DNA of 36,402 nt, taken from assembly GCA_913041175.1 (NCBI GenBank), contig CAJWGW010000003.1, positions 1-36,402 of the forward strand, given 5' to 3'. The DNA comes from an uncultured bacterium. Lineage in GTDB: Bacteria > Patescibacteriota > Minisyncoccia > Phycocordibacterales > UBA2163. Made by a program: the position numbers and the translations under genes. The notes below the pieces were generated by a model. It saw only the letters and a list, made by a program, of their open reading frames with translations. It searched no databases and was not told the origin of the DNA. Every line of letters starts with the position of its first letter. The stretch's first letter is position 1. Shown here piece after piece: positions 35,031-36,402 of this stretch.

Positions 35031-35184
35031 ATTCATATTCTTTCTTTTGTTTCGTTCTATTGGTCTTTCCCAAATGCCAGATTGCTTTTAAGATATTCAA
35101 TCATAATCTTTTCTGAACTCGATCGAGATCCAGAAAACCGACTCAATAAGTCCAATCTACATAATATGTAAATGAACGGGTTCC

Positions 35185-36402
35185 GTTGGAAATAATCCAC
35201 GACCAGCTTCCGCTAGCCGTGCCTTGTTACGACTTAGCCCCTGTTATCGAGTTTACTGTAGGTCCACCGAAATGGAACTTTGAGCACTCCCGACTTCCTT
35301 GACTTGACGGGCGGTGAGTACAAGGCTCGAGAACGTATTCACCGCAGTATAGCTGACCTGCGATTACTAGCGATTCCAACTTCATGAGGTCAAATTGCAG
35401 ACCTCAATCCGAACTTGGGCTACTTTTATAAGGATTTGCTCCACCTTACGGTATTGCGTCCTGTTGTAGTAACCATTGTATCACGTGTGCAGCCCAGGAT
35501 ATCAAAGGGTCATACTGACCTGGCGTCATCCCCACCTTCCTCTCCCGTGAGGGAGCAGTCTCGCCTGACACTTGTAACAGGCAATAAGGGTTGCGTTCGT
35601 TTCCCCACTTAAGGGAACAATTCAAATCACGAACTGACGACGGCCATGCAACACCTGCCAAACTGTCCGAAGAGGGTTCCGCTTTCACGGAACTTTCAGT
35701 TTGATTTCAAATCCTGGTAAGGTTCTTCGTTTATCGACGAATTAAGCCACATGATCCACCGCTTGTGCGAGCCCCCGTCTATTCCTTTGAGTTTTAGCCT
35801 TGCGGCCGTACTACCCAGGCGGTCCGTTTAACGCGTTAGCTTTGCCCCTCAGAGGGTCGATACTCCAAAGAGCTAACGGACATCGTTTAGGGCGTGGACT
35901 ACCGGGGTATCTAATCCCGTTCGCTACCCACGCTTTCGTGTCTCAGCGTCAGGAGTGTGCCAGTTTGTTGCCTTCGCTTTTGGTGTTCCCCATAATATCA
36001 ACGGATTTCACCCCTACACTATGAGTTCCACAAACCTCTCACACCCTCTAGTTGTGCCGTTTCCCCTGCGGACTCCACGTTAAGCGCGGAAATTTAACAG
36101 AAGACTAACACAACCGCCTACACACACTTTACGCCCAGTGATTCCGGGTAACGCTTGGGGCCTCTGTATTACCGCTGCTGCTGGCACAGAGTTAGCAGCC
36201 CCTTATTCATGAAGTAACATCAATACGCCAAAAGCGCACTTTCTCCTTCATAAAAGGTCTTTACATCCCGAAGGACTTCATCAACCACGCGACGTCGCTC
36301 CGTCAGGCTTTCGCCCATTGCGGAAGATTCTCGACTGCGGCCTCCCGTAGGAGTATGGACCGTTCTCAGTTCCATCGGTGGGGGTCAGGCTCTCACCTCC
36401 CC
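35185..36402 (-). rRNA. rrs: 16S rRNA, 3' ~1.2 kb (5' part beyond window)
   Basis: Minus strand contains ACTCCTACGGGAGG, GTGCCAGCAGCAGCGGTAATAC, GGATTAGATACCCCGGTAGTCC, AAACTCAAAGGAATAGACGGGGG, GTACTCACCGCCCGTC, AAGTCGTAACAAGG, h45 GGAA hairpin. Confidence 0.98.

Follow-up and report, generated by a model that had tools for sequence, protein, structure and literature searches.

The anti-Shine–Dalgarno (anti-SD) sequence at the 3' end of the 16S rRNA is among the most conserved of all bacterial sequences, and a 16S rRNA gene that appears to lack it raises the question of how initiation proceeds in such an organism and how widely its relatives share this state. We address this question with a 36,402-nucleotide stretch of DNA (hereafter the window) from a tiny, uncultured Paceibacteria-type member of the Candidate Phyla Radiation (CPR), whose genome (G000; 444 kb, 99.6% complete) is a draft of 28 contigs. 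The rRNA features concerned are:

35185 to 36402, minus strand: 3' portion of the 16S rRNA gene (Rfam RF00177, 1142 bits), with its 5' side cut by the contig end
35198 to 35221, minus strand: intact helix 45, CACGGCTAGC-GGAA-GCTGGTCGTG, with the GGAA loop at 35208–35211 (read from the sequence)
35188 to 35197, minus strand: 16S 3' tail GATTATTTCC replacing GATCACCTCC, with UUUCC (35192–35188) in place of the CCUCC core (read from the sequence)

The minus strand from 35262 to 35181 reads ...AAGTCGTAACAAGGCACGGCTAGCGGAAGCTGGTCGTGGATTATTTCCAACGGAA at the 16S gene end, and together with the RF00177 match this confirms two claims of the preliminary description, i.e. that the 16S tail lacks the canonical anti-SD and that helix 45, GGAA loop included, is intact. 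KsgA, the methylase of this loop, is also found in the genome. The sequence 3' of helix 45 is GGAUUAUUUCCAACGGAA, and beyond the helix the 16S ends GGAUUAUUUCC, with the mature 3' end predicted from the sequence. Three C-to-U changes separate this tail from GGAUCACCUCC; two fall inside the CCUCC core and turn it into UUUCC. In E. coli numbering, positions 1530–1539 (GAUCACCUCC) are replaced by GAUUAUUUCC here, with C1533, C1535 and C1536 changed to U. The window 16S is the only SSU gene of the genome (a second 16S copy was looked for and none was found), and the same tail is present in two members of the genus (G001 and G004) and in UBA2163 (L159), a separately deposited public genome. A downstream segment carrying CCUCC, also considered in the preliminary description, is not found: CCTCC is absent from the window trailer between the 16S tail and the processing-stem strand (35057–35044), and it occurs in only 6/145 order trailers at scattered positions, so that a CCUCC hidden in the trailer is rejected.

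We then compared the 16S tails of the different taxonomic groups. Among 60 relatives searched with RF00177, all readable order tails (28/28, read without selection on the tail) lack CCUCC. The strict canonical motif is present in 1 of the 41 sampled genomes from the window's own lineage, genus and order versus 73 of 346 elsewhere in the class, a count that overlooks class members with TGAATCACCTCC, which keep CCUCC too. The sole order match comes from G171, where a copy of normal order type is accompanied by a second one whose helix 45 differs; the latter therefore probably belongs to a foreign or contaminating contig. Elsewhere in the class, canonical tails form a mosaic with several different altered ones (e.g. 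GGATCATTATC, GGATCACTACATTT and GGATCATTTCTTT). Among the tails listed for the phylum's other classes, almost all are canonical; the roughly one dozen variants include several from a single family. Scanning named genomes with a pattern that selects order-type tails returned Kaiser-, Nomura-, Adler-, Taylor-, Zambryski-, Campbell- and Wolfebacteria; the complete Campbellbacteria genome CP011215.1 (L139) carries the order-type tail GGAATATTTCAA. On the 16S tree, a single well-supported branch sets the canonical rows apart, and the window groups with G004 and G017. As part of the best explanation developed below, loss of the anti-SD core was very probably inherited from at least the ancestor of the order. 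The preliminary description had ascribed the loss of SD initiation to 'this lineage'; the loss stands, but it is not a property of this lineage alone, being order-wide within a mosaic class. Some canonical-tail class members (L058–L065) read CCTCCTTTCTAGGGAG; here the trailer begins with a complement of the anti-SD, which could mask it in the precursor.

SD use was analysed with the same pipeline for all genomes, by counting SD4 motifs (i.e. AGGA, GGAG or GAGG) at −20 to −5, with expectations from shuffles and start sites from a simple unambiguous-ATG ORF filter. SD4 motifs precede 6.9% of starts in the window genome (5.7% expected), 8.5% in G001 (7.3%), 4.2% in the anti-SD-less G007 (4.9%) and 9.5% in a set of 118 named order loci (8.3%). 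None of these four sets has SD enrichment over shuffles, versus 50% against 21% expected in the E. coli K-12 positive control. This bears out the earlier view that SD-based initiation has been lost, and supports the conclusion that initiation in this genome is not SD-based. SD4 values for two canonical-tail relatives are 13.8% versus 9.5% expected (G165) and 6.2% versus 5.9% (G303). These CCUCC-keeping genomes are also low in SD, so SD disuse either predates the loss of the anti-SD or extends further.

Start contexts in the same genomes suggest how initiation may proceed instead. In the window genome, 47% of the first genes of transcription units have a TATAAT-like −10 box at −18 to −9 (18% expected), with a peak at −15 to −12; the corresponding values are 42% in G001 (16% expected), 37% in G007 (13%) and 28% in the 118 order loci (12%). 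This signal is weak or absent in the canonical-tail relatives G303 (15% versus 12% expected) and G165 (12% versus 6%), two genomes being too few for claiming a correlation. Operon-internal genes have almost no such excess in the window genome (20% versus 19%) and G001 (22% versus 16%), and some in G007 (20% versus 12%) and the 118-locus set (21% versus 10%). The −35 boxes near first-gene −10 boxes are only weakly enriched. By promoter geometry, transcription driven by a −10 box at −18 to −9 begins on the start codon or only a few bases from it, and therefore the mRNAs of first genes with such a box should be leaderless, with their 5' ends predicted from the sequence. The sequence before starts is rich in A, with a preference for U at −1. 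Examples in the window are:

17492 to 18004, plus strand: infC (IF3), with an apparent UUG start and TATAAT at 17479–17484 (−13), predicted leaderless (TIGR00168 match at 17498–17989; upstream sequence)
11963 to 14119, plus strand: recG-like helicase gene, with TATACT at −13 of the ATG at 11963, predicted leaderless (Pfam; upstream box)
30613 to 31899, minus strand: ORF with TATAAT at −14 of its start at 31899, predicted leaderless (upstream box)

Start-abutting −10 boxes are also found at the window genes that start at 6524, 7750, 19141 and 19569. In G000, G001 and G007, a few to about 40 nt separate the start of prfB from the 3' end of the tRNA gene before it; in G001 its ATG abuts the tRNA, and therefore tRNA processing alone could create a leaderless mRNA. 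The RF2 (prfB) frameshift normally needs SD-like pairing. The CTTTGAC frameshift site at the start of prfB is absent in the anti-SD-less G000 (contig C10), G001 and G007, and present in the CCUCC-keeping G303.

Regarding the translation machinery, the window genome contains IF3, an rpsA-family protein with S1 domains (score below the curated cut-off) and a bS21-like protein. Weak bS21 matches occur in most genomes, and bS21 does not discriminate between tail states. A tmRNA gene (16189–16563, minus strand) is matched by Rfam RF00023 and was missed by ARAGORN. Era scored over the cut-off in none of 95 class genomes sampled, in agreement with published work (PMC12641178, PMC10582724). Because the KH domain of Era binds GAUCA and CCUCC in pre-16S rRNA (PMC10582724), without Era there is one reason fewer to retain CCUCC. 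That Era loss relaxed the constraint on CCUCC is nevertheless something that we infer, since CCUCC-keeping class members are also without Era; for the same reason, i.e. absence throughout the class sample, Era presence cannot serve as a correlate of tail state.

Our preferred explanation, which we regard as very likely, is that the anti-SD core has been lost since at least the ancestor of the order, that SD disuse came first and that initiation relies on leaderless mRNAs and A-rich contexts. SD use would have faded across the class, where it is rare even in CCUCC-keeping members, before the anti-SD decayed, and Era is missing class-wide; the constraint on CCUCC would thereby have been relaxed, allowing the tail to drift to an AU-rich sequence. 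The ancestor of the order, which comprises Kaiser-, Nomura-, Adler-, Taylor-, Zambryski- and Campbellbacteria-type Paceibacteria, would already have been without the core. Initiation would proceed without pairing between mRNA and tail. Many first genes would produce leaderless mRNAs, with the 5' end at or a few nucleotides from the start codon, to be read by ribosomes loaded with initiator tRNA, while operon-internal genes would use A-rich upstream sequence together with the favoured U at −1, probably aided by coupling to the preceding gene. Of these elements, the tail, its distribution, the lack of SD and the −10 boxes next to starts are observed, whereas transcript 5' ends, ribosome behaviour and the sequence of events are predicted. 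Points that speak against the explanation are the SD-led accessory genes described next, the −10-like excess at operon-internal genes of the 118-locus set and the weak enrichment of −35 boxes.

A minority of genes in the window genome have a different upstream sequence: textbook leaders of the AAAGGAGG type precede about 25 accessory genes despite the anti-SD-less ribosome. Those in the window include:

34525 to 34971, plus strand: glycine-zipper lipoprotein-like accessory gene with a textbook SD, GAAAGGGAGGTGAGAAAG-ATG (Pfam Gly-zipper; upstream sequence)
8356 to 8916, minus strand, and about 9236 to 9442, minus strand: other SD-led accessory genes (upstream sequence)

Of 95 non-coding GGAGG occurrences in the genome, 28 lie just before the start codon of an ORF of at least 50 aa; the corresponding numbers are 1 for CCTCC and 5 for GGTGG. 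Many GGAGG-led genes are accessory-like (e.g. lipoprotein-like, hypothetical and dCTP deaminase genes) and many have no detectable G001 counterpart, while some GGAGG leaders are kept in G001, including that of a dCTP deaminase that is 99.5% identical between the two genomes. The simplest reading is that the SD-led accessory genes were recently transferred from SD-using donors. Between the 16S and tRNA-Ile genes (33860–35000), the window contains accessory ORFs; this region was not found at the corresponding position in G004, a member of the same genus.

The tail itself and the trailer that follows contain three elements:

35181 to 35191, minus strand: possible mini stem-loop UUCC-AAC-GGAA over the old anti-SD position (arms kept in 117/127 parsed order tails, loops of 3–7 nt)
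35109 to 35137, minus strand: trailer hairpin TTTTCTGGATCTCGATCGAGTTCAGAAAA (from the sequence; near-identical in L009, with similar elements in other order trailers)
35044 to 35057, minus strand: GAACGAAACAAAAG, the 3' side of the pre-16S processing stem; leaders of relatives contain its complement, the box CTTTTGTTTCGTTC (leader/trailer duplexes in the order)

The processing stem is recognized because many order leaders contain a conserved box, CTTTTGTTYCGTTC, and the trailers carry its complement. The box pairs with GAACGRAACAAAAG about 120–240 nt past helix 45, forming duplexes of about −30 to −40 kcal/mol across the order; pairing of the leader with the 16S tail is rejected, since the box pairs further downstream instead. 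For the mini stem-loop, 117 of the 127 unique order tails that were parsed have GGANNA followed by UUC(C)-AA-N-(G)GA, versus a 31% background, although a scan in which the 5' arm was fixed supplied many of the tails. UUCC tails have GG and UUC tails have G, so that, where the arm is present, the extra C is matched by an extra G (49 to 0). On the 16S tree, however, the C state changes about three times and the G state twice, and the stem has only 3–4 bp; we therefore downgraded the covariation despite its perfect counts. In the window's genus a competing hairpin, AACGG-AAC-CCGUU (35187–35175), folds better, and a GGA/UCC pairing competes too. The order tail element is conserved and possibly a candidate processing signal.

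Four other explanations were weighed against the preferred one. A 28-contig draft whose 16S is cut by a contig end might raise the suspicion of an error in sequencing or assembly, or of a pseudogene copy, the intact 16S lying elsewhere in the genome, but there is one SSU locus only and variant tails are found throughout the order; because the identical tail recurs in independent genomes (G001, G004 and UBA2163), assembly error is excluded and the probability of this explanation as a whole is negligible. The preliminary description had proposed that the altered tail, UAUUUCC, now recognizes GGAAAUA-type leaders, and UUUCC is indeed common to the genus members read. Upstream regions of the window genome refute this: GGAAA occurs in 0/125 (1.8 expected), GAAAT in 6 (5.4 expected) and AAATAA in 11 (8.9 expected). 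Hybridization of upstream regions with the organism's own tail equals that of shuffled sequences in G000 and G001 and is weaker in G007. Because such leaders are not enriched and own-tail binding is no better than shuffled, a recoded SD/anti-SD pair (category iii of PMC10783764) is ruled out as a working explanation, and we give it very little credence. Nor was a perfectly matching variant SD found for any of 128 organisms with a variant or no anti-SD (PMC6107228).

Residual SD use would be a different matter, with the degenerate tail pairing with GGAGG through G–C, A–U and two G–U pairs at a few genes. The concentration of GGAGG before starts, compared with CCTCC and GGTGG, and the conservation of some of these leaders in G001 agree with it. 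Set against this are the lack of genome-wide SD enrichment, the accessory-like character of many GGAGG-led genes and their lack of a detectable G001 counterpart, and the better fit of AAAGGAGG to the canonical CCUCCUUU of other lineages than to the organism's own tail. Donor origin explains the GGAGG-led genes equally well, and we consider residual use unlikely. Somewhat less unlikely, though still doubtful, is that a conserved structure under selection, the mini stem-loop UUC(C)-AA..-(G)GAA, took the place of the tail, either closing off the former anti-SD site or marking the point of 3' processing. Its frequent second arm (GA 3–7 nt past UUC) and matched C and G states favour selection; the little independent covariation, the short stem, the competing folds (notably in the window's own genus) and its absence from 7 of the 28 unselected tails do not. 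We thus retain early SD disuse followed by decay of the anti-SD core as the best explanation. A fuller picture may also hold, although we advance it tentatively: a whole diverse order without anti-SD would start translation mainly on leaderless mRNAs, keep a conserved short element at the old anti-SD position and carry an accessory gene set with canonical SDs that its own ribosomes cannot pair with properly.

An order in which all tails read are anti-SD-less, inside a class whose CCUCC-keepers hardly use SD, provides a natural series for the role of the anti-SD once SD pairing is gone, and for asking whether the loss of Era and of SD use lets the anti-SD decay. Gene calling is affected as well: where start models expect GGAGG, the starts assigned in these uncultured and abundant bacteria may be wrong.

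Loss of CCUCC together with SD scarcity is a recognized category that includes Ca. Campbellbacteria, Wolfebacteria, SR1, Chryseobacterium and Carsonella (PMC10783764). The window genome shares with these organisms the absence of CCUCC from the 16S (in all copies, n=1), few or no SD motifs (at background here) and the same variant in relatives. That study gives a handful of CPR genomes as examples, whereas here the loss is order-wide, with a class mosaic and a leaderless-promoter signature. The organisms of PMC6107228 likewise have no matching variant SD, but they are concentrated in Bacteroidetes, Tenericutes and Carsonella, and the main text makes no mention of Parcubacteria. Bacteroidia ribosomes sequester the anti-SD in a bS21–bS18–bS6 pocket (PMC9976891). 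Bacteroidia resemble the window genome in having no genome-wide SD use, and some Flavobacteriales also have anti-SD changes; by contrast, Bacteroidia keep and hide a canonical anti-SD, whereas the window 16S has none. Unlike the window genome, mycobacteria retain the anti-SD and many SD genes. Mycobacterium tuberculosis is nonetheless a leaderless-rich bacterium (PMC3898074), with many genes expressed from promoters that abut the start codon, as predicted for the window genome. In the open-access literature searched, we found nothing on leaderless initiation in these bacteria or on order-wide anti-SD loss. In brief, anti-SD-less bacteria are already known, while the order-wide extent of the loss and the leaderless signature appear to be new.
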